NCBI GenBank assembly: GCA_018814825.1
Contig: JAHIYJ010000055.1
Span: 1-34,779, forward strand
Origin: Candidatus Omnitrophota bacterium
Lineage (GTDB): Bacteria > Omnitrophota > Gorgyraeia > Gorgyraeales > Gorgyraeaceae
Length of the DNA: 34,779 bases
Direction: 5' to 3'
The first letter of the stretch is position 1; the number at the start of each line of letters is the position of its first letter. A program made the position numbers and the translations under genes. Below are positions 10,935-34,779 of this stretch, in pieces. Below the pieces are notes generated by a model. It was given only the letters and a program-made list of their open reading frames with translations. It had not been told where the DNA came from and searched no databases.

Positions 10935-10956
10935 AGAAAAGCCTCCTGATCATTAA

Positions 10957-11092
10957 ACACTAAACTCTAAATCCTAAACTCTAAACAAACTCTAAATTCA
11001 AAATCACAAATCCAAAACTTCATGTTTGAAGATTGGTATTTATGATTTGGGATTTGTTTAGTGTTTAGGGTTTCGGATTTAGGATTTATCAT
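10957..11092. repeat. inverted heptamer array (AYYCTAA units left; TTTAGGR-type units right) between mcsB and mcsA
   Basis: ACACTAA/ACTCTAA/ATCCTAA/ACTCTAA... left arm; TTTAGTG/TTTAGGG/TTTCGGA/TTTAGGA right arm. Confidence 0.85.
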
Positions 11093-15962: not shown

Positions 15963-16293
15963 GTCTTTTCGCTCTGTCAGGGCCTACTAAAAGACCAATA
16001 TGTAACAAGGTATCTATCTAAGCGCATAACCAGTCCTGCTCGCTCAGTCGAAGATTTGCCCCCGCTTGTTCCAAAACTACCTGGGGCCGCCTTTTATACA
16101 GCATTTTGTCGGGGGCGAGAAAACTTACCCCACACCAACTGCCTTTGGCAGAAGGTGTGGGGTTCGGACAGTTCTCGTCCTTTTAGAAACCGCCAAAATA
16201 CTGCCTAAAAGCCTAAATCTTCAATTCGCGATCAGGACTGGTTATGCGCTTATCTTATCGGTCTTTTCGCTCTACCACGGCCTTCGAAAAGAC
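15963..16293. other. structured intergenic element (candidate ncRNA or palindromic mobile element)
   Basis: 20-bp perfect inverted repeat 16019-16038/16233-16252 enclosing nested stems and three arms, flanked by two related 33-bp repeats (15963-15995, 16261-16293). Confidence 0.75.
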
Positions 16294-17685: not shown

Positions 17686-17763
17686 TATCAGCTATCAGCT
17701 ATCAGCTATCAGCTATCAGCAAAACATTTAAAACTGATAGCTGAAGACTGAAAGCTGAAAGCT
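17686..17763. repeat. inverted heptamer array: 5x TATCAGC, 12-nt loop, 4x GCTGAWA-type
   Basis: TATCAGC x5 at 17686-17720; ACTGATA GCTGAAG ACTGAAA GCTGAAA at 17733-17760. Confidence 0.95.
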
Positions 17764-21999: not shown

Positions 22000-23250
22000 T
22001 TAATGAGGTACCAGTATCTTTTTCTCCCTCAGCTTATGATGGTACTTCAACGCAAACCTATGCGCCTCGTCCCTTATCTGCTGTATAAAATGTACTATCT
22101 CGGAATCCCTGTTTATGTCCAGGGGCGTTTTTGAGCCCAGCGTATATATCTTCTCGTGCTCCTTGGCGATTGATATAACAGGTATCCGCCTTAGGTTCAA
22201 TCCCAACAATTCCTCATAAGCGGCGCGCAGATGCCCTTTGCCGCCGTCTATTATGACAAGGTCCGGAAATTTAGCTTTCTCTTCCTTTAGTCTCGCGTAC
22301 CTGCGTTTCACTATCTCACGGATCATCGCGTAATCATCTATGTCCTTTACGCCTTTTATCTTGAATTTCCTGTAATTCGACTTGTCCGGCCTGCCGTTGA
22401 GAAAATACACCATGGAACCAGTCGCCTCTCTGCCGGCTATATTCGACACATCGAAGGCCTCTATCCTCAGAGGAAGCCATGGGAGCCTGAGCAGGCGCTT
22501 TAACTTCACGGCCACCTCTCCCCACCCGCTGTAATCGCTGAATCTCCTTCCGGGCACTTCTGAAAGCGCCGCAATCCTGTTTCTTATTATAGCGGCCTCC
22601 TCGAAATTCCGCGCCAGCGCCAGGCTGTTCATCTTTTTAGTCAATTCATCCAGGAGCTGTGTCTTCCTGCCTTCCAGAAAAAGTATAAGCTGTCGGACAA
22701 TCTCTCTGTATTTCTTTTGATCTATCTTTCCCGCGCACGGCCCGGCGCATTGACCTATGCGATAAGACAGGCAGACCTGGAAAGACATCTTCGCGCACGT
22801 CCTTAAAGGAAAAATGGCCTTCATTATGGACAGGGCCTTACGCAAGAGCTTAACGCGCGCGTACGGCCCAAAATACCTGGCCCCGTTATCCTTCCTTTTT
22901 CTTGTTATCAAGAGCCTGGGAAATTTTTCGTTTAATGTTAATTTTAAATAAGGAAAGCTCTTGTCATCCTTTAGATCGACGTTGTACCTGGGCCTTTTTT
23001 CCTTGACTAGGCCGGCCTCGTATATAAGAGCCTCCTCTTCCGAGGAGGTGACTATAAAATCCAGGTCTTTTACGTGTTCCAGAAGAGCTGTCTCTTTTGC
23101 CGTCCTGGGCCTGGATTTCTGAAAATAACTCGGCACCCTCTTCGAGAGGTCCTTCGCCTTACCTATGTAAAGGACCTCGCCTTTACCGTCTTTCATCAGA
23201 TAGACGCCCGGTGCCTTCGGTATGTCTTTTAATTTATCCTTAACGCCCAC
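22000..23250 (-). CDS. uvrC: excinuclease ABC subunit C, short form
   Basis: GIY-YIG (PGVYLMKDGKGEVLYIGKAKDL), UVR motif, RNase H-like endonuclease (EAFDVSNIAG, VIIDGGKGHL, IRDEAHRFA); 416 aa, ends before HhH. Confidence 0.92.
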   Translation of the reverse strand: MGVKDKLKDIPKAPGVYLMKDGKGEVLYIGKAKDLSKRVPSYFQKSRPRTAKETALLEHVKDLDFIVTSSEEEALIYEAGLVKEKRPRYNVDLKDDKSFPYLKLTLNEKFPRLLITRKRKDNGARYFGPYARVKLLRKALSIMKAIFPLRTCAKMSFQVCLSYRIGQCAGPCAGKIDQKKYREIVRQLILFLEGRKTQLLDELTKKMNSLALARNFEEAAIIRNRIAALSEVPGRRFSDYSGWGEVAVKLKRLLRLPWLPLRIEAFDVSNIAGREATGSMVYFLNGRPDKSNYRKFKIKGVKDIDDYAMIREIVKRRYARLKEEKAKFPDLVIIDGGKGHLRAAYEELLGLNLRRIPVISIAKEHEKIYTLGSKTPLDINRDSEIVHFIQQIRDEAHRFALKYHHKLREKKILVPH

Positions 23251-24806
23251 TTTAAAAACTCCTTGGCCTCTTTTACGTCAAAGATAACGGCCGCCAATCC
23301 ATAACTTAACATGCCCAGGGATATAACGATAAAAAGATTCAGCTTTATCTTAAAAATAGAGACGTAAATAACCGCTGCCATTACTATGCTCGCCATAAAC
23401 ACTTTCAGGAATGAACGCAGTATCTTAGCCCCGTCAATAGCCCCTATTTTTTTTCTCAATATAAAAAACAAAAGAAAGAAATTGAACGTCCCCGAAAGTG
23501 ATGTGGCCAGCGCCAGCCCGCTTATCTTCAGGGGAAACATGAAAATTATACTAAGTATTATATTAAGTATCAGGGAAGCGCTTGCCACCTTTACGGGGGC
23601 AAGTGTATCCTTCAAAGAATAAAAACACGACACCAGAATCTTTATGCCTGCGTAGCTGAAAAGGCCTATGGAATATAACGAAAGCGCCCGCGCCGTAATA
23701 AAGGTCGAGTAACGGTCGAACATGCCCCTTTCAAACAACATGCTCGTTATGGGCTCTGAGAGCACTATGAGTCCCACTGACGCCGGAAGCATGATAAAAT
23801 TCACAGCCCTGAGAGAGAAAGAAAGCGTCTTTTTTAAATTACCGAGTCCAGCTTCAAGCGCCTCTCTTGACATGGTTGGCAGGGCCGCCTGCGCCAGAGC
23901 TATGCCGAATATCGCCAGCGGGAACTGAAAGATCCTGTTCGCGTAATAGAGCGCCGCCACGCCGCCTTCGCCCACTATGGACGAAAGAGACGCCAGCAAG
24001 GTATTTATAAAAATGTTTATCTGGTACACGCATGAACCCAAAACCCTGGGCGCGAGCAACCTGCCTATCTTTTTTACGGCCGGGTGATAAATGCCGCTTA
24101 AAAAATTAAACCCATGCCCCGTTCCAAACTTCTGCTCTCCTTTTATCAATCTTGATGTTTGGAATGGGGAGAACCCCCTGGCCGTTAAAAAAGGCACCTG
24201 GACAACGAGCTGTATAACCCCTCCTATCAAGACACCCGTGGCAAGCGCCCTGACGCTGCCCTGCCGCACCAGGGCGCATATTATTACGGAAAGGTTCAGT
24301 ATGGCCGGAGCGAAAGCAGGCGCTGAAAAATGTTTCAGGGAATTGAGGATGCCCATACAGTACGCCAAAAGCCCCACAAGCAACACATAAGGAAAAAGAA
24401 GCCTGGTCAGATATACCGTAACCCTGAATTTTTCGGGGTCATCTACAAACCCTGGAGCTATAAGGCGGATTATTACCGGAGCAAAGGCCACTCCCAGTAA
24501 AGTCACAAGGGCCAGGATGATTAACATAGCGTTCAGGAGCGCGTTTGCCAGATGCCAGAATTCTTCTTTCTTCCTGGTCTCTGAGTACTCGCTGAGGATA
24601 GGTACAAACGCCGCGTTCATGGCCCCTTCCCCTATTAAATCTCTCAGCATATTAGGTATACGGAACGCCACAACGAATGCCTGGGCGTATTTCGCGGTGC
24701 CGAAAAACTTGGCTATCAGGATATCGCGCAAAAACCCAAGCACCCTGCTTATGACAGTGGCAAACCCTATAGTGCCTGCTGATTTAAGGATGTGTTTTTT
24801 TGACAT
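23229..24806 (-). CDS. murJ: lipid II flippase MurJ (MviN)
   Basis: GFLRDILIAKFFGT, ALYYANRIFQFPLAIFGIALAQAALPTMSREA, multi-TM. Confidence 0.93.
   Translation of the reverse strand: MSKKHILKSAGTIGFATVISRVLGFLRDILIAKFFGTAKYAQAFVVAFRIPNMLRDLIGEGAMNAAFVPILSEYSETRKKEEFWHLANALLNAMLIILALVTLLGVAFAPVIIRLIAPGFVDDPEKFRVTVYLTRLLFPYVLLVGLLAYCMGILNSLKHFSAPAFAPAILNLSVIICALVRQGSVRALATGVLIGGVIQLVVQVPFLTARGFSPFQTSRLIKGEQKFGTGHGFNFLSGIYHPAVKKIGRLLAPRVLGSCVYQINIFINTLLASLSSIVGEGGVAALYYANRIFQFPLAIFGIALAQAALPTMSREALEAGLGNLKKTLSFSLRAVNFIMLPASVGLIVLSEPITSMLFERGMFDRYSTFITARALSLYSIGLFSYAGIKILVSCFYSLKDTLAPVKVASASLILNIILSIIFMFPLKISGLALATSLSGTFNFFLLFFILRKKIGAIDGAKILRSFLKVFMASIVMAAVIYVSIFKIKLNLFIVISLGMLSYGLAAVIFDVKEAKEFLKWALRIN
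24117..24169. repeat. palindromic element inside murJ
   Basis: CCCCGTTCCAAAC ... GTTTGGAATGGGG (13-bp stem, one wobble). Confidence 0.9.
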
Positions 24807-24815
24807 ATTTAAGCC

Positions 24816-24844
24816 TTGACATGCTTAAAAACATATGTTATTTT
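24816..24844 (+). promoter_or_regulatory. candidate sigma70-type promoter for rpsT
   Basis: TTGACA-N17-TATTTT upstream of the only plus-strand gene. Confidence 0.55.
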
Positions 24845-24914
24845 ATCATTCACCATATTAATACGGAGCATTAATCCCCTCGCCGCCAAACAACAAAACC
24901 AGGGCAGCTCGGGA

Positions 24915-24937
24915 TCAAATTTGCTTCGCAAATTTGA
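24915..24937 (+). promoter_or_regulatory. perfect hairpin abutting the rpsT Shine-Dalgarno
   Basis: TCAAATTTGC TTC GCAAATTTGA (10-bp stem) immediately followed by GGAG and the ATG at 24949. Confidence 0.7.
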
Positions 24938-24948
24938 GGAGCAATATT

Positions 24949-25221
24949 ATGCCAATATTACATGCATCTTACAAGAGTATAAAGGTAATCAAAAGAAGAA
25001 CGGAACACAATCTTCCCGTAAAGTCCCTGCTCAAAACAGAGACTAAAAAATTTATAGAGCTCCTGGCCTCTAAAAAACTGGATGAAGCGAAAAAACAGCT
25101 TATTAAGGTCTCCTCAGAGCTCGATAAGGCCTGCTCAAAGGGCGTAATACACAAGAACACGGCGTCCCGTAAAAAATCCCGCCTGGCAAAGAAACTTAAT
25201 TCCGCAAAAATAAACGCCTAG
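24949..25221 (+). CDS. rpsT: 30S ribosomal protein S20
   Basis: MPILHASYKSIKVIKRRTEHNLPVKSLLKTETKKF...GVIHKNTASRKKSRLAKKLN; start at 24949 has a GAGGAG SD (ORF track starts at 24934). Confidence 0.93.
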   Translation: MPILHASYKSIKVIKRRTEHNLPVKSLLKTETKKFIELLASKKLDEAKKQLIKVSSELDKACSKGVIHKNTASRKKSRLAKKLNSAKINA

Positions 25222-25231
25222 GGCGTATTAT

Positions 25232-26194
25232 CTATACGGCGCACATCTTTACTATCAATCGCTCTATGGCGTCACGGGGAGGCGTGCCTGATTTAATATC
25301 CAGATCAGCCGATAATATTTCTTTCAATAAAGCCAGGATATCCTTTTTCTTAAACCTCGCCGCGTGGGCCGCGATTTTATCAAATCTCCCCGGGCTTAGA
25401 CTGAGATCCCGGCATATCTCCGTTTTATTCTTTATCCTCATAAGTTCCTTGACCCTTAAAAGCATCCTTGCGTTCCACGCTAAAAGCCCTAACAGTTCCG
25501 TCTCTCTTTTCTTGTCTTTTTTCAGAGCTGAAAATATACGCAAAGCCCTCGCTGCATCTTTCCTCTCTATCGTATTCATAAGATCAAATGCCGTGTGGGA
25601 CGGGTTCACGCCTATGACCTTTTCGACATCTGACTTGGTTATGACCGGCCTATTGCCGATATATAATATAATATTATCCATGCCGGAGTTAAGCACCCTA
25701 AGTTCTCCTGCAAGGCTTTCCTTTATCTCGTTTATCGCGTCAGAAGCTATCTTTTTACCGGAAAGCTCCGCCTTTTTAACGAGCCAGGCGCTTATTCCTG
25801 AATCCGTCAGCCGTCTGAAATAAGAAAGATTGGCCAGGCCGGACGCCTTTAAAAGAAATCCCCCCTTTATTACGAGAGAAGGGCTTTCGATCACAAATAT
25901 CGTGCTTTCTCTTGGGTTCTGGAGGTAAGAAATGACTGATTCCTTAAAAGACGCCTGCATAGAGTCAGCGTCTTTTAACACAACCAACCTCTTCTTTGAG
26001 AGAAATGGCGTGGTATTCATGGTGCCCAGCATCTCTTTGATGTTGAAATTTTTCTCTTTAGCGTAAAACACACTGTAATTTAGCTCCAGGGAAACACCTG
26101 ACAGGAACTTGGATTTTAGCCTGCTAATCTCTTCTTCCTTTAAGAAATCTTCCTCTCCTAAGAAAAGATATGCGGGAAAAATTTTGGCGGGCAT
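25232..26194 (-). CDS. holA: DNA polymerase III delta subunit
   Basis: YLFLGEEDFLKEEEISRLKSKF, PFLSKKRLVVLKDAD, LAWNARMLLRVKEL. Confidence 0.88.
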   Translation of the reverse strand: MPAKIFPAYLFLGEEDFLKEEEISRLKSKFLSGVSLELNYSVFYAKEKNFNIKEMLGTMNTTPFLSKKRLVVLKDADSMQASFKESVISYLQNPRESTIFVIESPSLVIKGGFLLKASGLANLSYFRRLTDSGISAWLVKKAELSGKKIASDAINEIKESLAGELRVLNSGMDNIILYIGNRPVITKSDVEKVIGVNPSHTAFDLMNTIERKDAARALRIFSALKKDKKRETELLGLLAWNARMLLRVKELMRIKNKTEICRDLSLSPGRFDKIAAHAARFKKKDILALLKEILSADLDIKSGTPPRDAIERLIVKMCAV

Positions 26195-26204
26195 AGTAAA
26201 AGGG

Positions 26205-26789
26205 TCACCAGTTTTCTACGATGCTGTTTACTATCCTTCTGGCCAGATCTGAGGCGGCATCCGTCAATGCCTGATTCTCGCTTTTTTGCAATGACCCTGT
26301 GGTGAAATACGTGGTGTCCCCCGTTATATTCTCAAGTTCTAACAGGACGCTTGAGTCATCCGCGTCCCTCAACACTATATCGCACACAAGACTTATCCTG
26401 TACTCCCTGACTTCTTCGTCCTGGTATCTCAGGGGGTCTTTTCTGTATTGAATTATCTCGCCCTCCAGGATAGCATCAGCCTGGTCCATAGCGGCTACCC
26501 TGAGATGGCCGTCTAAAAATATCCTGTTCACGATAGCGTCCCTCAGATCAACCTCCAGGTTCGGCCTGTAAACCTCGTATTTATCTTTAGCACTTACCTC
26601 TTTTACTATATCCACATTGTTCTTGAATAGCTGCACGTGGATAGTCTTCATGTCCGGAGGCAGGATCACGCTTCTTGTCGCATAGCCACAGCCGGATAAT
26701 AGAATAGCGTATAGCGTACCCCATACCACAAGGGTACGGGGCAGGTAGCGTATAGCGTATAGAAAAAGTTTATTTCTTTGCGATCTCAT
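26205..26789 (-). CDS. lptE: LPS-assembly lipoprotein LptE-like
   Basis: Lipobox LLSGCGYATRSVILPPDMKTIHVQLFKN..., DLRDAIVNRIFLDGHLRV; start may be internal because the N-terminus contains heptamer-derived sequence. Confidence 0.75.
   Translation of the reverse strand: MRSQRNKLFLYAIRYLPRTLVVWGTLYAILLSGCGYATRSVILPPDMKTIHVQLFKNNVDIVKEVSAKDKYEVYRPNLEVDLRDAIVNRIFLDGHLRVAAMDQADAILEGEIIQYRKDPLRYQDEEVREYRISLVCDIVLRDADDSSVLLELENITGDTTYFTTGSLQKSENQALTDAASDLARRIVNSIVENW
26719..26741. repeat. palindrome inside lptE N-terminus, embedded in an AGCGTAT heptamer array
   Basis: CCCCATACC ACAAG GGTACGGGG flanked by AGCGTAT units on both sides. Confidence 0.8.
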
Positions 26790-27714
26790 CCAATCTCTCC
26801 TGGGCCTTTTCCGCCCATTTAGTATCAGGATAATTCTGGATTATATCCCTGTAATATACCGCGGCGCTGGCCGGCATCCTGCGTTCTTCGTAGAACTGGC
26901 CTATGTTGTACGCGTTTTCGGATTCCCTGTTCTTGAGTTTTTCTATAATCTTTTTGGCGTCAGACGCCATTTCGCTTTCAGGGTGTTTTTCTATGAACTC
27001 CTCGAATTCCTCGCGCGCGACTTCAGTGGGAGTCTGGTCATACTCAGCCTTAAGGGACAGAAGCTTCGAGCATTCCGCCAGTTGGTACCTTGCCTTGTCA
27101 ATAAGTTCGGAATTCGGGTATTTATCGATCAGGCCCTTGAACATCAGGATCGCGTTGTCATAATCTAAGATATCCTTATAGGTCAGCCCCGCTTTGTACA
27201 TGGACATGTCAGCATACTTCCCGTAAGGGGCGTTATCAGCCACTTTCTTGAATATCTCTATGGCTTTATCTTTAGCCGGCATCCTTATCGGCCCTAGCAC
27301 GTTTATCTTATGTCCTGAGAAAAATAACTCGCCTATCCTGTATTCCCTTTCGATTACGTCATCAACCAGCTCCGTGTACGGATAGAGATCTATGACCTTC
27401 TGCAAGGCCTTAAACGCGTCATAGTACTTACCCGTGTCCTGCATTATACGGCCGATATAGTACTGAGCCGTAGGGGCTTCCTTTGAGAGAGGATAATATT
27501 TTATCAGCTTCTTAAATTCTTTAAGGGCCAACTTAAAATTGCCCTGTTTATAGGCATCTTGGGAATAAGTAAGCTGTTCCTCGGGTGTATCCTTGGCGGC
27601 GTATTTCGGGTTCTCCCATTTGCCGCTTTCAGGGGTCCACACCCAGTAAGCGTACGCGGGCTGTATGGCTAGGCCTATTATCAATATCAATGCTATATAT
27701 ATTCTATAAATCAT
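26770..27714 (-). CDS. BamD/YbgF-like TPR outer-membrane assembly protein
   Basis: Signal peptide (AYAYWVWTPESGKWENPKY), TPR units (AYKQGNFKLALKEFKKLIKYYPLSKEAPTAQYYIGRI). Confidence 0.75.
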   Translation of the reverse strand: MIYRIYIALILIIGLAIQPAYAYWVWTPESGKWENPKYAAKDTPEEQLTYSQDAYKQGNFKLALKEFKKLIKYYPLSKEAPTAQYYIGRIMQDTGKYYDAFKALQKVIDLYPYTELVDDVIEREYRIGELFFSGHKINVLGPIRMPAKDKAIEIFKKVADNAPYGKYADMSMYKAGLTYKDILDYDNAILMFKGLIDKYPNSELIDKARYQLAECSKLLSLKAEYDQTPTEVAREEFEEFIEKHPESEMASDAKKIIEKLKNRESENAYNIGQFYEERRMPASAAVYYRDIIQNYPDTKWAEKAQERLDEIAKK

Positions 27715-27789
27715 GTCTTAAATCTTATCACACCCCGCTTGCCGTGTCAACTCACTTCAGGAGGGATTACGGGAGTGGTTAATTATCCT

Positions 27790-29418
27790 TCATATGTAAA
27801 AATGACCGAATTTGAGGCCGGCGAAGAAATCTGCCAGGGCGAAAATAACATTGCAGCACAAATTATTCGCCGACACCAGCACCCCTGCCGCAAAGTCCAT
27901 CCATCCAAACAAAAGAAAGACCAGGCCGGATATCAGCGATACGAACAAAGCGGGTATTATCAAAAGGTTGGCTATAACGGCGACTGGCGTAACTATCTTG
28001 AAATAGTACACTATTAATGGCGAAGTCCCGATCCAGGCGGCCAGAGAGACAGCGAACGGCGCAAGGAAGAATCTGTTTATAATAAAATTTTTCTCCGTCT
28101 TTATCAGGTTCAAAAATAAAGGGGCTAAAAATATTATTGATAACACGGCGACAAACGAAAGCTGAAAACCCACATTGAATACGTCATGAGGATTCCTTAT
28201 CAATATAAAAAGTGCCGCCATGGCGACAGAATTACTTATGTCTATCTTCTTGCCCAGTAAACGTCCTATAAAAAAGAGCACTACCATGACTGTCGCCCTG
28301 ACTACCGAAGGGCGGGATAGGGCGAGCATGGCGAAAAACACAATGAATAATATGGTCAGGATATAAGCGGCCTCTCTTTTCATCCTGAAAAACCTGAATA
28401 GATACAGGAGGGCCGCGGCGACAAGCCCCACATGCAAACCGCTTATAGCCATAATATGATAAACCCCGCAGTTTTTGAAGGCGGTTTGTAGATGCTTTGG
28501 TAATTCAGAGCGATCTCCGAGAAGAATAGCACTCAAAAACGCTCCACTCTCAAGAGGCATTTTTTCAAGGATTTGGTTCTTGAGTTTCTCTCGGATTAAA
28601 TATGTATATTTTAGAATAGGATTTGATCTGTAGTTATGCGATAAAAGTGTTATGTTGTTTTCTTTTGTGTTTATAACTGCAAATATATTCTGTCGCTCAA
28701 GGTATTCACGGTAGTTGAAATCGCCTTTGCGCAACCTAAACCCCGTACCAAATTTTACAACTTCAAAGATTTGGTACGGGGTAAAGGTTGCGGCTACCTT
28801 ATCATCATTGGTTGCGGAAACATCACCATTATCGGTAGCCGCAGGCTTTAGCCTGCGAGAAATGGGCCTCTTTACCGTCCCCCTCACAACCAACCTATCC
28901 CCATACCCATAATCTTTTTCTGTCTGGATCCTGATCTGAGCTAAACCCTTTACATCCCGCCAATCGTCTTCTTCCTTTATCGCCTCTATCTCAAATAGAT
29001 ACATAGAATTAATCTTCCCATAATAGGGTTTCCGAGTCAAAACAGGACTCTTTATAACTCCGACTATACCTGTCTTAAGTTTTTCTTCTCCCAGAAAATG
29101 GCTAATATGATGTTTGGGGAATATATTGGAATTAATATATAGAAGTGCTGCAAATGAACTAACCGATAAAACCAGGAAAATATTGGCTATCTTTTCCCGC
29201 ATTGTAGGGGTTCGATTCATCAAACCCGAAACCTCTGGTTCGGACGCGATACCCTTGCGGGCATAAGTAAATCGCGCCCCTACAATAAAGGAAGAAAGGA
29301 TAAAAACTAACGTGATTATGGATATATGAAGGAATTTAATTGAATCAGGAAGAAATCGAACTAAGATTATCCCTAATATAAAGAAAATGGCGATTACTGC
29401 AAGCGGTCTTTTATCCAT
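27790..29418 (-). CDS. comEC: ComEC/Rec2-family competence protein (no C-terminal metallo-beta-lactamase domain)
   Basis: GDRSELPKHLQTAFKNCGVYHIMAISGLHVGLVAAALL plus multi-TM domain; 542 aa. Confidence 0.88.
   Translation of the reverse strand: MDKRPLAVIAIFFILGIILVRFLPDSIKFLHISIITLVFILSSFIVGARFTYARKGIASEPEVSGLMNRTPTMREKIANIFLVLSVSSFAALLYINSNIFPKHHISHFLGEEKLKTGIVGVIKSPVLTRKPYYGKINSMYLFEIEAIKEEDDWRDVKGLAQIRIQTEKDYGYGDRLVVRGTVKRPISRRLKPAATDNGDVSATNDDKVAATFTPYQIFEVVKFGTGFRLRKGDFNYREYLERQNIFAVINTKENNITLLSHNYRSNPILKYTYLIREKLKNQILEKMPLESGAFLSAILLGDRSELPKHLQTAFKNCGVYHIMAISGLHVGLVAAALLYLFRFFRMKREAAYILTILFIVFFAMLALSRPSVVRATVMVVLFFIGRLLGKKIDISNSVAMAALFILIRNPHDVFNVGFQLSFVAVLSIIFLAPLFLNLIKTEKNFIINRFFLAPFAVSLAAWIGTSPLIVYYFKIVTPVAVIANLLIIPALFVSLISGLVFLLFGWMDFAAGVLVSANNLCCNVIFALADFFAGLKFGHFYI
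28454..28840. repeat. mosaic direct repeat, copy A (inside comEC)
   Basis: 28454-28566 identical to 34393-34505; 28730-28840 identical to 34669-34779; middle ~77% identical. Confidence 0.95.
28730..28792. repeat. palindromic element inside comEC
   Basis: CGCAACCT-AA-ACCCCGTACCAAAT ... ATTTGGTACGGGGT-AA-AGGTTGCG (8 bp + 2x2 loop + 14 bp). Confidence 0.95.
29200..29285. repeat. composite palindromic element inside comEC N-terminal part
   Basis: ATTGTAGGGG ... CCCCTACAAT outer arms, nested CGAAACC/GGTTCG and GCGAT/ATCGC. Confidence 0.8.
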
Positions 29419-29589: not shown

Positions 29590-32500
29590 TTATACGCCCC
29601 TCGATAAATCATCTTCTACTTCTTTTTGTCTGTCTATTAGTTCACTCAAACTATCTAAATCTATTCCATTTGCCTCATAATAGGTAGTAAGTTCAAAAAA
29701 TAATTTATTGAGCTGGGTCTCGGACAAATCCTTAATTATCTGGGTTGGTTTCAAACCAAGCCCATCCACTCTCTCTCCTTCTCCATGTATAACCCTACCA
29801 AATTCATCCACTCCTTTTCCTTCTCCATATACCACCTTTATATGAACCCTTTCGTCATATTCAAGATATTCAACATCTCTATATTCCGCTGGATTCCTGG
29901 CAATTATTACTACTGTTTCATCTGCATCTAATTTCGTCACAAGCCAGGTGGCAAATCTACTTCTGCCTTTATTTACTACACTTTGCGCAGCCCAAACAAT
30001 AATTTTACTTCGCGCTTCTTCTACATCACGATCTTCACTAGAAGCAGCTTCGATAACTCGTTTCTCAGGAACCTTAGCTAACTCAATACCAACTTCTTTT
30101 TGTAAACCCTCTCTTATCTCTGCCCTCTCTTCTGTCCTCACTCTTCCCATATCTAATTTTGTCCTTAAATCTCTAATCCCTTGTGAAGGCTCTTCTGGAA
30201 CTAAGGCTTGTAATCTCTCACTTGTAGCACCTGCAAGCACTTCATACTCATCCTTTCCATCTTCGTTCTTCCCTATACGTCTCACTAACCCAATATCTTC
30301 AGCATCTCTCAATTCTCTCCGAACTGTAGTTTCAGAATATTGACGAGTTTCATCTGGAGTACCATCTTCATGTTCGTAAAATCTGTTTTCATGAACCTTG
30401 CTTACAGTTACTGTAGCACCTTCTTCGAACTTACCCATTCTCGCAAGGGTCTTCATAAGACCGACTGTGGAACCCCTGCTTTTCAATTGTGTTTCAGGAC
30501 TCTGTCTTGGCCCAGATAATCCAAGTGTAAGGAATTGTCTTCGATCTATCTTTGGAGGGTCATGCAGTGAATTTGATAATACACCCATTGCAACTACTGC
30601 AGCACCTAGCCCTTCTATTGCTGGGATAGCACTATCTTGTTGCATTAAACCTAACTCAATAAGATAATTTCTTGCTCTTTGTGCTATCTCAGGATTAACA
30701 TCATTCACAAGTTCCCTCAAAGAACGAATAGCAGCATTACTTAAATAGGGGTCTTCTTCTCTTGCAATTTGATATACATAATCGACTCTCTCCGGAGTTG
30801 TTACTCCAACTATAACGCTGGGAATAGGCTCTTCGTCAAAGACACCAGATTCCAATGCTATAATATGGAAAAGTGGGAAATCAGCATTTCTTAAGTCATC
30901 GGTCAATAATGCATTTGTAATATTCTGGATAGTAGGTGAAAAAGGGAAATTTGTTATTATCATCCAAAGGAAAAAATCTGGGCCAAACTGCTCTACGGCA
31001 TAATTATCATAATTTTCATAAATCCAACTACCTCTTAGTAAGTCTTCAAAACTAGGGGCTAAAGGCATACTAGCCCTTTCGCCTTGCTCCTGGAGTTCAA
31101 TCTGTCTATCGATCTCCTGTCGTAAAGCAGCAACACCTGCTTCTATAGCTAGATAAGGATTAGTTAAAAGCATCTGATTTATTTCTCTATTAGATAAATT
31201 TGACGCATCTATACCTAGTCGTTTCCAAAGCCCATGTGTTTTTACGTTTCTTTCTTCAGGAAATTCTTTGACAGGGCCTGCACGTACCTGCATAAGCCCT
31301 GAGGTCGGAGAAGTATTTGCAGCCGAACCCAACCTGTCAGCTATACTATCTTGTAACTTCATATCTGTTGGTAAAATACCTGCCAACATATCATAAAAAG
31401 GATATCCAGTTTGTCCGGATCTCGCTTCATCTATACCAACATCATCAGGCAACATATCATGGTGCCAGAAAAACATCCCTAATCCCTCCTTAAGATCATA
31501 GGTAGGAAAACGATCTTTTATCATCTTGTTATATAAAATAAAAGTTGCAACAATGTCTGGAGGTATATTATGTGCTTCTGCAATTTCCTGTATATCTGCT
31601 TTTAACGGCAAAAGTATTTCCCTTGCTTTTCTTACTGCCTCAACGTTTTCAATAGCCACCGGTCTCCTTGGTCCATGCTGCAATTGTCGATAGTATTCAA
31701 CTCTCTCGCCAAACATCTCTTCAGAATAAACAGGGGGCTTTCTATATGCAAGATCATCTATATCTCTGCGATGAGGCAACCCTCTCGATTCTATATCTCT
31801 TTTTTCTCCTTCTATTCTTTCTCGAATTTGTCCTAGCAAAATTAAAGCATCTGCATCCTCAGGGTAATCGCGTTCAATAGCCTGAAAAATGGACTCAAGT
31901 CTTTCTATGTTCAAAACTCGTAAGCGATATGTATCAGCTAAAGATAGGAATTGACTCGGAAACTCCTCCCCAAGCTCTAGAGCTCTTGTAAAATCAAAGG
32001 GTGTATCTATGAATTCTTCTATATACTTAATAAACTCTATAACATTAAAATCATCTTCTCTTGTCTTACCATAATACTCATAAAAGTAGTATCTATCATT
32101 TACATAAATCTCTAACAACAAGATTCTCAAATCTGCAGCTGCCCATTGTGATTGCCAATCAGGAAATCTATCTGGTCTTAATTCCGAAATTAGCATATTT
32201 ACATATTCTAATTCTTCGGCAGTTGACATGCTCATTAAATTAGGTGTTCTATCGTATTCATCATAGTCTCCGAAATAGCTATCGTATTTTGGTCTATATT
32301 GATCTACAATCTCTATTAACCTTTCGATTTTTTCTTCATTAATCTCTTTCTCAAGTTCCAATCCTCTTAGTTCATCTATAAATACTGCTTGATGTAGCGC
32401 CCTAATAACTTTTATCTTACCTATACCATCTACTATTATTGGTGGTGGGGTAATATTAAAATTTGCAGGCCCTAGTTGTGGTGTAGAAACCGGTAAAGAT

Positions 32501-33849
32501 TCTGTTCCCACAGGTCTTACTCTTGCGATTTCATCAATATTAAGATAACCATATTTCCAACTTTTAAAACTTCTATCTCGTGAAAATATATATAAAAGAT
32601 TAACTCCCGATAGATTCGCAATAAAAGTTGCTAATCCAGCACCTAAACTAGCACGTAAAAAAGTCCGTCTACTCCATTTTTTCGATTTCGAACCTTCTTT
32701 ATGTCCCGCTGACAGTTTAGATGATCTTACTAATCGAAATTCATATAAAATAAATCCTCCCATTATGATAACAGCAGGTAATAAAAGCGGTAGAAAAGGT
32801 TTTATAGCTATAGCAATATGTTCTTTATCATTAAATACTACAAATACTATCAAAGTTGCAACAAAAGATAATGTTGAAAAAATTGTAAACTTTTTCCTTT
32901 TGATTTTAGAAATAGTAGTTTCTCTAACCTCTGTCTCCTTATAGCCTAAATCAGCCGAGGGAGAAATATCTCCCTTTTGTGCTCCAGCATCCCCTCTTGC
33001 ATCACCTATATCACCAATAATTAAAGTCCTTTCTATCCGCTCTCCTGCAGTAGGTTCTTCAGCAGAAGAAGGCGATCCCTTACCCTCCTCCTTACTAACT
33101 TTTGTCACCCTATGAATCCTCTTACCTTCTCCCTTTCTATCTTTAATCACCCCTTCCTCTTGTATTTTAGCTACAATTTTACTCTTTTCTTTTAAGTCAA
33201 AGAAATACTTAAAGAAATTTGCATATTCATCACCTTCTGGTCTTAGTATAGGCATCATTATTGCAAGAAACGCTCTTTCTTCTTGTGTAAGATCTGATTG
33301 ATCGACTAAATCCTCTGTGATATATAAAAGTTCAAAGGCTTGGGAGATTATATCATTAAAGAGTCTATTTTGATTTTGATGTGCTGGTTCATGATGAGGT
33401 AATGCATAATACAAAGTCATAATATCTGGATTGTGTAGAACTTGTTCCATTATTCTTTCATATCTGCCTCGATGAAGAACTTGCATCCTTTGCATCAGGA
33501 GTTCATAATCTTCATGTGTAATATATCGAATCAATCTGAGATCATCATCATAAACTTCCTGATCTACTACGTATATGCCATTTCGACGAATTAAGGCTTG
33601 TGTACCTTCTTCATTCAAACGGTCTCGATTTTCTCCTATATGTCCTGCAACACTTATATTCCTACTTTCTCTATGCATATCAGCTATCATTTTTCTTCTA
33701 GTTTCAGGAAAATATTTAGATACGATAGGCGGTCTTAGGTGGGAATTATTAGAAAAATCTAGCCCATAAGCTATGGTAGTGATACAGAAAGTAATAGCTG
33801 TAACAAATGATACCACCTTCAAATTATAACCTTTTTTAAACATCATCAT
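29590..33849 (-). CDS. giant multi-domain envelope protein (1419 aa) with N-terminal signal, TM hairpin, internal Tat-like motif, SLT-like segment, winged-helix-like segment
   Basis: Single long ORF; hydrophobic N-terminus then SNNSHLRPP; SRRTFLRASLGAGLATF; TSGLMQVRAGP...NPYLAIEAGVAALRQ; SETTVRRELRDAEDIGLVRRIGK. Confidence 0.85.
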   Translation of the reverse strand: MMMFKKGYNLKVVSFVTAITFCITTIAYGLDFSNNSHLRPPIVSKYFPETRRKMIADMHRESRNISVAGHIGENRDRLNEEGTQALIRRNGIYVVDQEVYDDDLRLIRYITHEDYELLMQRMQVLHRGRYERIMEQVLHNPDIMTLYYALPHHEPAHQNQNRLFNDIISQAFELLYITEDLVDQSDLTQEERAFLAIMMPILRPEGDEYANFFKYFFDLKEKSKIVAKIQEEGVIKDRKGEGKRIHRVTKVSKEEGKGSPSSAEEPTAGERIERTLIIGDIGDARGDAGAQKGDISPSADLGYKETEVRETTISKIKRKKFTIFSTLSFVATLIVFVVFNDKEHIAIAIKPFLPLLLPAVIIMGGFILYEFRLVRSSKLSAGHKEGSKSKKWSRRTFLRASLGAGLATFIANLSGVNLLYIFSRDRSFKSWKYGYLNIDEIARVRPVGTESLPVSTPQLGPANFNITPPPIIVDGIGKIKVIRALHQAVFIDELRGLELEKEINEEKIERLIEIVDQYRPKYDSYFGDYDEYDRTPNLMSMSTAEELEYVNMLISELRPDRFPDWQSQWAAADLRILLLEIYVNDRYYFYEYYGKTREDDFNVIEFIKYIEEFIDTPFDFTRALELGEEFPSQFLSLADTYRLRVLNIERLESIFQAIERDYPEDADALILLGQIRERIEGEKRDIESRGLPHRRDIDDLAYRKPPVYSEEMFGERVEYYRQLQHGPRRPVAIENVEAVRKAREILLPLKADIQEIAEAHNIPPDIVATFILYNKMIKDRFPTYDLKEGLGMFFWHHDMLPDDVGIDEARSGQTGYPFYDMLAGILPTDMKLQDSIADRLGSAANTSPTSGLMQVRAGPVKEFPEERNVKTHGLWKRLGIDASNLSNREINQMLLTNPYLAIEAGVAALRQEIDRQIELQEQGERASMPLAPSFEDLLRGSWIYENYDNYAVEQFGPDFFLWMIITNFPFSPTIQNITNALLTDDLRNADFPLFHIIALESGVFDEEPIPSVIVGVTTPERVDYVYQIAREEDPYLSNAAIRSLRELVNDVNPEIAQRARNYLIELGLMQQDSAIPAIEGLGAAVVAMGVLSNSLHDPPKIDRRQFLTLGLSGPRQSPETQLKSRGSTVGLMKTLARMGKFEEGATVTVSKVHENRFYEHEDGTPDETRQYSETTVRRELRDAEDIGLVRRIGKNEDGKDEYEVLAGATSERLQALVPEEPSQGIRDLRTKLDMGRVRTEERAEIREGLQKEVGIELAKVPEKRVIEAASSEDRDVEEARSKIIVWAAQSVVNKGRSRFATWLVTKLDADETVVIIARNPAEYRDVEYLEYDERVHIKVVYGEGKGVDEFGRVIHGEGERVDGLGLKPTQIIKDLSETQLNKLFFELTTYYEANGIDLDSLSELIDRQKEVEDDLSRGV

Positions 33850-34000: not shown

Positions 34001-34471
34001 TCAAAACCTCTTAACCGCCCCTCTCGCCAACTCTGATATCTTCCTGCCTGTTTTTTCCGCTATTTCTCTCAGCCTTCTATCCTGCTCTATGGTTATGGTT
34101 CTCGGTAAAACCTTCATACCAAGGGGCGAGATTTTTCTGTATGGTTCAAATGACAAGCCTCTAGTTTCAATGCTCTTTAAGTAAGCATCGAGCACCTGTC
34201 TTAATGCCCCAGATTCAGATTTTCTATGCTTTTTGGCTAAATTCCTGAGCTTTTGGGCTTGTTTTGGGGTTAGGCTGACGTATAGGGTTGTATAATTCCT
34301 GCACGGCTTATTTGCCTTAACTAATTGATTTGTATAGGGTAAGGTCACTTTTAAGTGAATAATTAAGTTTTTTCGTGTTTTGTACTGGCAAGATATGATA
34401 AACCCCGCAGTTTTTGAAGGCGGTTTGTAGATGCTTTGGTAATTCAGAGCGATCTCCGAGAAGAATAGCAC
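34001..34471 (-). CDS. tandem (double) ribbon-helix-helix protein; true start uncertain, N-terminal part of the ORF overlaps the comEC repeat
   Basis: TTLYVSLTPKQAQKLRNLAKKHRKSESGALRQVLDAYL and PRTITIEQDRRLREIAEKTGRKISELARGAVKRF, two CopG-type units. Confidence 0.6.
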   Translation of the reverse strand: MLFFSEIALNYQSIYKPPSKTAGFIISCQYKTRKNLIIHLKVTLPYTNQLVKANKPCRNYTTLYVSLTPKQAQKLRNLAKKHRKSESGALRQVLDAYLKSIETRGLSFEPYRKISPLGMKVLPRTITIEQDRRLREIAEKTGRKISELARGAVKRF

Positions 34472-34779
34472 TCAAAAACGCTCCACTCTCAAGAGGCATT
34501 TTTTCTAAAATCTGATTTTTCAATTTCGCTCGGACTGAGTAAATATATCTCAGGAGAGGATTTGATTTGTAATTGTGGGATAAAAGCGTTACATTGTTCT
34601 CTCTTGTATTTATAAGAGCAAATATATTCTGCCGTTCGAGGTATTCCCTGTAGTTAAAATCGCTTTTACGCAACCTAAACCCCGTACCAAATTTTACAAC
34701 TTCAAAGATTTGGTACGGGGTAAAGGTTGCGGCTACCTTATCATCATTGGTTGCGGAAACATCACCATTATCGGTAGCC
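34317..34779 (-). pseudogene. comEC: 3'-truncated second copy of comEC (runs off window end)
   Basis: FNYREYLERQNIFALINTRENNVTLLSHNYKSNPLLRYIYSVRAKLKNQILEKMPLESGAFLSAILLGDRSELPKHLQTAFKNCGVYHI matches comEC, then diverges to a stop. Confidence 0.85.
34393..34779. repeat. mosaic direct repeat, copy B
   Basis: See copy A; fixed offset of 5939 bp. Confidence 0.95.

Follow-up and report, generated by a model that had tools for sequence, protein, structure and literature searches.

The palindromes with CCCC...GGGG ends that are dispersed through a Candidatus Omnitrophota genome (a 1.3-Mb assembly, the host genome, labelled G000), in places in frame inside protein genes, probably represent a non-autonomous, MITE-like mobile element, present as copies and remnants, that belongs to one Omnitrophota family. 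Its canonical unit, known from a consensus of 39 aligned rows taken mostly from the relatives G003 and G006 with some loci entered in both orientations, is ∼100 bp long and contains no gene, with a recognizable interior between perfect terminal inverted repeats of 16 bp (CCCCGTTCCAAATTCT...AGAATTTGGAACGGGG); CCCCGTTCC marks the ends of the element. Shorter copies of 22–80 nt look like internally deleted hairpins. Together with a 4-bp target-site duplication described below, the canonical form and its terminal inverted repeats indicate a transposing, MITE-like family. The smallest hairpin, at 22 nt, is very short for a transposase substrate and counts against this reading.

We analyzed a window of 34,779 nucleotides from the host, whose nearest named relatives are Candidatus Omnitrophota MAGs. 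The initial annotation had placed palindromes at four loci in the window and in a second comEC copy, and all of these positions were borne out (table 1). The pattern CCCCRYWCC(N3-33)GGWRYGGGG has four matches in the window versus none in 100 dinucleotide shuffles, and misses the murJ palindrome because its loop exceeds the allowed gap. Across the host genome, a looser pattern with a gap of 3–33 nt occurs at 34 places versus 2 for a reversed-pattern control, and a gap of 34–64 nt adds 20 places versus 0, giving 54 versus 2, far above chance and in keeping with the dispersed family first proposed from the window. Half-site searches recovered additional copies of 84–125 nt and one-armed copies, bringing the host total to about 60 palindromes, an estimate made after discounting overlaps and a few chance matches. 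Four matches with poor arms (C24:1819, C92:20002, C22:14718, and C47:64) were taken as chance or decayed. Since copies were found through pattern searches, degenerate ones are under-counted. The unit of the ACACC copy in the window recurs at L008, L019, and L027; a larger structured repeat (AAGCGCATAACCAGTCCTG ... CAGGACTGGTTATGCGCTT) surrounds this copy at window positions 16020–16250 and has related compounds at several further genomic positions. An Rfam search of the window returned no known RNA.

Table 1. Palindromes, flanking duplications, and host genes in the window
Feature	Position	Strand	Basis or remark
ACACC-arm palindrome CCCCACACC...GGTGTGGGG	16128..16162	.	nested in larger structured repeat
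murJ, lipid II flippase, host gene of insert	23229..24806	-	Pfam PF03023, E 8e-120
CATG, 4-nt flank counted into murJ insert	24113..24116	.	identical CATG in relative G006
53-nt palindrome CCCCATTCC...GGAACGGGG (coding strand) in murJ	24117..24169	-	alignment to 39 homologs
lptE, host gene	26205..26789	-	PF04390
23-nt palindrome CCCCGTACCCTTGTGGTATGGGG (coding strand) in lptE lipoprotein signal sequence	26719..26741	-	
comEC, host gene	27790..29418	-	Pfam PF03772
REP-type hairpin CGCAACC-TTTA-GGTTGCG, TTTA loop took in comEC palindrome	28730..28792	.	
TAAA, left copy of 4-bp duplication (coding strand TTTA)	28737..28740	.	
41-nt palindrome CCCCGTACC...GGTACGGGG in comEC, in frame	28741..28781	-	pattern and alignment
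TAAA, right copy of 4-bp duplication	28782..28785	.	
Second identical 41-nt copy, in partial comEC duplicate at contig end	34680..34720	-	

The arms form sub-families (GTACC, GTTCC, GCACC, and ACACC). In a set of 100 distinct copies drawn from five genomes, Watson–Crick pairs make up 618 of the 700 cells at variable arm positions, more than both the mean (426) and the maximum (470) obtained when right arms were shuffled among loci, and the arms therefore covary between loci. The earlier claim that arms differ between loci yet stay complementary within each is upheld as far as covariation goes, but the pairing is not always perfect: a G-T/A-C arm position is common, with one each in murJ and lptE. 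Covariation also accords with the suggestion of selection on structure or copying through the palindrome.

The murJ insert consists of the 53-nt palindrome plus 4 nt, that is, 57 nt or 19 residues in frame. None of 39 MurJ homologs has this segment (three from Omnitrophota at 75–78% identity and 36 others). The site is empty in L086–L088 and filled in L236, and the relative G006, which belongs to another genus, has a 32-nt palindrome there that is shorter by 21 nt and so still keeps the frame. ComEC likewise has ∼42 extra residues between conserved blocks, and alignment found several relatives without them. The outcome that would have counted against the initial annotation, homologs sharing these segments as normal protein sequence, was thus seen for neither protein. 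The palindrome is one part of this larger compound insert; the compound of hairpin and palindrome is found at about nine other places in the genome, and ComEC of G003 and G009 carries other, unrelated repeat-derived inserts at the same place. The partial second comEC (34317–34778), which encodes a protein 88% identical to the main copy, lies at the contig end and has the same palindrome; positions 29590–33849 encode a predicted 1419-residue protein with a signal-like N-terminal stretch.

In lptE, the palindrome and CAGG (26742–26745) make up a clean insertion into a TAGCGTA heptamer array. Heptamer arrays (CTAAACT-, TCAGCTA-, TAGCGTA-, GGCTGAA-, and CAGTTGA-like) lie at 10954–11088, 17688–17763, and 26700–26765 of the window and at L011, L013, L022, L024, and L026; some are in frame within essential proteins (ValS, IleS, PurL, and LptE) and are landing sites for palindromes. 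Many copies of the element sit in loops of other palindromes, among them a REP-like family tagged GTAG, the CGCAACC-TTTA-GGTTGCG hairpin of comEC, the CTTATTTGACAAA... palindromes of G006, and the AACATAA... palindromes of G000. These nested compounds spread as units, several copies being clearly passengers of other repeats, which accounts for some of the copies and for many of the sites that have no duplication of their own.

Ten host proteins contain in-frame copies: MurJ, ComEC, LptE, ValS, IleS, PurL, a lipid-A acyltransferase (as a lipid-A acyltransferase/ELM1 fusion), and three prepilins. Alignment of ValS and IleS to solved structures places extra residues at the palindrome sites, and relatives have in-frame copies in PrmC (G006) and a 4Fe-4S protein (G003). 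Of ∼20 prepilins, four contain a copy; one of these has internal stops, though also an internal ATG. Adding 4 nt to the element gives a length divisible by three in all in-frame protein cases except ComEC of G003, where the palindrome sits within a larger compound; because copies were recognized via open frames, frame-breaking ones are less likely to be seen, and the agreement checks consistency without being an unbiased test. With 4 additional nt, the canonical 100-nt form would put a gene out of frame, and recognizable coding regions contained no copy of that length. The initial annotation had described related peptides in a single frame, which is true of murJ, comEC, and the three prepilins (TPxQ...FGxG) but not of lptE, ValS, PurL, IleS, and the acyltransferase, which use the other two frames.

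RNA genes are also hit. Five host tRNA genes (three tRNA-Pro, one Ala, and one Met-type CAT) start inside the right end of a palindrome. At tRNA-Pro(tgg), a palindrome occupies the same spot in five genera (G000, G001, G003, G004, and G006), with lengths between a few tens of nt and roughly 100 nt and partly degenerate in G001 and G004, and the site is empty in five species of genus g3. The stems clearly differ between genera, for example GTTCC/GGAAC versus GTCCC/GGGAC. In the RNase P RNA (RF00010, 499 nt; L023:1040-1538), four helices are built of the GCACC sub-family; G001 (L192) has the same four palindrome helices, and other relatives have unrelated short helices there. A 57-nt GTTCC-type palindrome lies in a variable stem of an FMN riboswitch (L079:1451-1636). 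Three further arrangements involve tRNAs: a 5' tRNA-Arg half directly followed by a palindrome, with no adjoining 3' half, in two genera (L021:2966-3038 and L223); element units of ∼104 bp repeated in tandem upstream of tRNA-Pro(ggg) (L166:1500-1763); and a left flank, GGGGCGTG, that recurs ahead of different tRNAs in G003.

Identical 4-mers flank the palindrome at 10 of 39 host sites and 15 of 60 sites in relatives (25 of 99), although some duplicated sites are related via larger repeats and the 25 are not all independent. Permuting the right flanks gave means of 0.9 (host) and 2.1 (relatives) and maxima of 5 and 8 in 5000 trials, and there was no excess of flank duplications at 3, 5, or 6 bp. 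All 25 duplications read CNNG (20) or TNNA (5). This 4-bp duplication is a signature of staggered-cut transposition, by an enzyme whose action we infer. Three quarters of the sites have no 4-bp duplication, which counts against the mobile-element reading, and the insertions in heptamer arrays are clean, without visible duplication, although duplicated whole heptamers could not be told apart.

We predict that the element is mobilized in trans by a DDE-type transposase making a 4-bp staggered cut at CNNG/TNNA, and that after insertion the hairpin erodes inside while its stem would stay complementary through RNA-hairpin selection or palindrome-templated conversion. As far as can be judged from sequence, the essential proteins, tRNAs, and RNase P RNA that were hit are not visibly broken. 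Surviving genic copies are of three classes. In the first, the element and 4 nt together have a length divisible by three, and the insert keeps an open frame. In the second, the GGGG end and the duplicated 4 bp rebuild a tRNA 5' end or a GTG start. In the third, the copy takes the place of a free helix in a structured RNA or lies in a part that is normally removed later (tRNA 5' leader, prepilin leader, or lipoprotein signal sequence). A copy entering a tRNA gene after its first G's would re-create them with its own GGGG, the remainder becoming 5' leader, a part that RNase P ordinarily cuts off. Where a copy has entered an A^TGAA start codon, the result is GGGGTGAA, a GTG start (L177, L229, and L241); this is seen in a glycosyltransferase gene of the host genome and two genes of relatives. 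In prepilins, the insert comes after G-F of the leader and reads ...FGTG^FTL at its end, and would therefore rebuild the prepilin-peptidase site and leave the extra residues in the cleaved leader; prepilin leaders and lipoprotein signal sequences are normally cleaved off in processing. We tentatively suggest that the element may be a self-healing palindromic transposon, whose CCCC...GGGG ends and CNNG/TNNA choice make insertions at tRNA 5' ends (GGGG^CNNG), start codons (A^TGAA to GTGAA), and prepilin sites (G-F^TL) harmless by rebuilding the signal, after which the hairpin would persist for long, its stem actively kept complementary, and substitute for native helices of RNase P and other essential RNAs.

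The strongest alternative, although an unlikely one, is that palindromes are copied without a transposase, one hairpin replacing or invading another at a stalled fork through template switching or gene conversion, a process that may coexist with transposition. It would suit the presence of one subfamily in all four peripheral rnpB helices in two genera, the nesting within loops of other palindromes, the duplication-free clean insertions in heptamer arrays, and the different subfamilies carried in different genera at shared tRNA sites. The exact 4-bp duplication with its symmetric consensus, however, points to a staggered cut.

The MITE-like reading calls for a transposase, and none with matching ends was found; the DDE search was made with one family, PF01609, whose profile gave no hit in G000 or G003 and two in G006 among the three genomes searched. 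The host genome has two Y1 transposase genes of the REP-associated type (L032:1340-2849 and L033:983-2083), each with a different palindrome of its own on its flanks (AGGGGACAGCGACC type and TTAACTTGACG type). We set these aside as mobilizers, as the flanking palindromes differ from the CCCC...GGGG element. It is accordingly improbable, more so than palindrome copying, that these are REP/BIME-type elements moved by a RAYT-like Y1 transposase through a single-stranded hairpin route, even with two such genes present and many copies in loops of REP-like hairpins, one family of which is GTAG-tagged: besides the mismatched flanks, the element has no GTAG/CGTC foot, and Y1 transposition of the IS200/IS605 kind is not expected to give a 4-bp target duplication.

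Within the taxonomic family of the host, the element is frequent in several genera (29 copies in G003 and 27 in G006); the strict pattern occurs in 15 of 384 genomes of the phylum and is sporadic outside the taxonomic family. The 100-bp consensus had no match in plasmid and phage collections. The 16-bp end CCCCGTTCCAAATTCT appears in six viral contigs as single arms in apparently unrelated coding sequence, with no paired element, and we consider these matches coincidental. Lineage-specific presence, identical or near-identical copies in unrelated genes, copies in unrelated proteins, and target-site duplications make it very unlikely that the palindromes are functional RNA hairpins (leaders, attenuators, or processing sites) retained after an ancient dispersal and alike partly by convergence, for which the tRNA-Pro leader stems, complementary across genera despite sequence change, and the hairpins in rnpB and the riboswitch would otherwise speak. 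A metagenome assembly artefact is extremely unlikely, for although several copies lie at contig ends, the same sites are filled in independently assembled relatives (MurJ in G006; tRNA-Pro in G001, G003, G004, and G006) and the inserts in essential genes are in frame.

In its behavior the MITE-like family resembles the Rickettsia palindromic elements (RPE), as the initial annotation proposed, and the resemblance extends beyond proteins to RNase P RNA, the FMN riboswitch, and tRNA genes; it is an analogy drawn from behavior and published descriptions, and the anatomy is MITE-like. RPE are found in 19 reading frames, tmRNA, and RNase P RNA, with their target duplication listed as "?" (PMC2229807), and measure 105–146 bp with a CGTC end tag (PMC3733652). 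Like RPE and the protein-coding palindromes of Wolbachia, the Omnitrophota element is ∼100 bp long and dispersed, with in-frame copies in many conserved proteins and further copies in RNA genes. Unlike RPE, it belongs to another phylum, differs in sequence by description, ends in CCCC...GGGG with no CGTC tag, has a 4-bp CNNG/TNNA duplication, and uses tRNA 5' ends, start codons, and prepilin leaders. With bacterial MITEs such as Correia/NEMIS, RUP, and ERIC, which have mostly TA-type ends (PMC2229807), it shares a short noncoding unit, terminal inverted repeats, target-site duplication, and a strong hairpin, but those are mainly intergenic, and no parent insertion sequence was found for the Omnitrophota element. 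GTAG-/CGTC-tagged REPs are also short palindromes and sometimes intragenic, and the ComEC hotspot resembles recB of related species, where different REPs occupy one site (PMC3733652); the Omnitrophota element, however, has no GTAG/CGTC foot and flanks no Y1 transposase.

We found nothing in the literature on such elements in Omnitrophota. To our knowledge, in-frame selfish palindromes are known mainly from Rickettsia and Wolbachia, without a known mechanism or target duplication. The Omnitrophota family is an independent example from a distant phylum, and a rich one: its 4-bp duplication is clear, a canonical full-length form is known, sites occur both empty and filled, and insertion recurs exactly where damage is repaired or processed away. 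Two questions thereby become testable, namely by what mechanism palindromes of this kind move and whether selection or copying maintains their stems. The family also shows a route from mobile DNA to added peptides in proteins and added helices in ribozymes.
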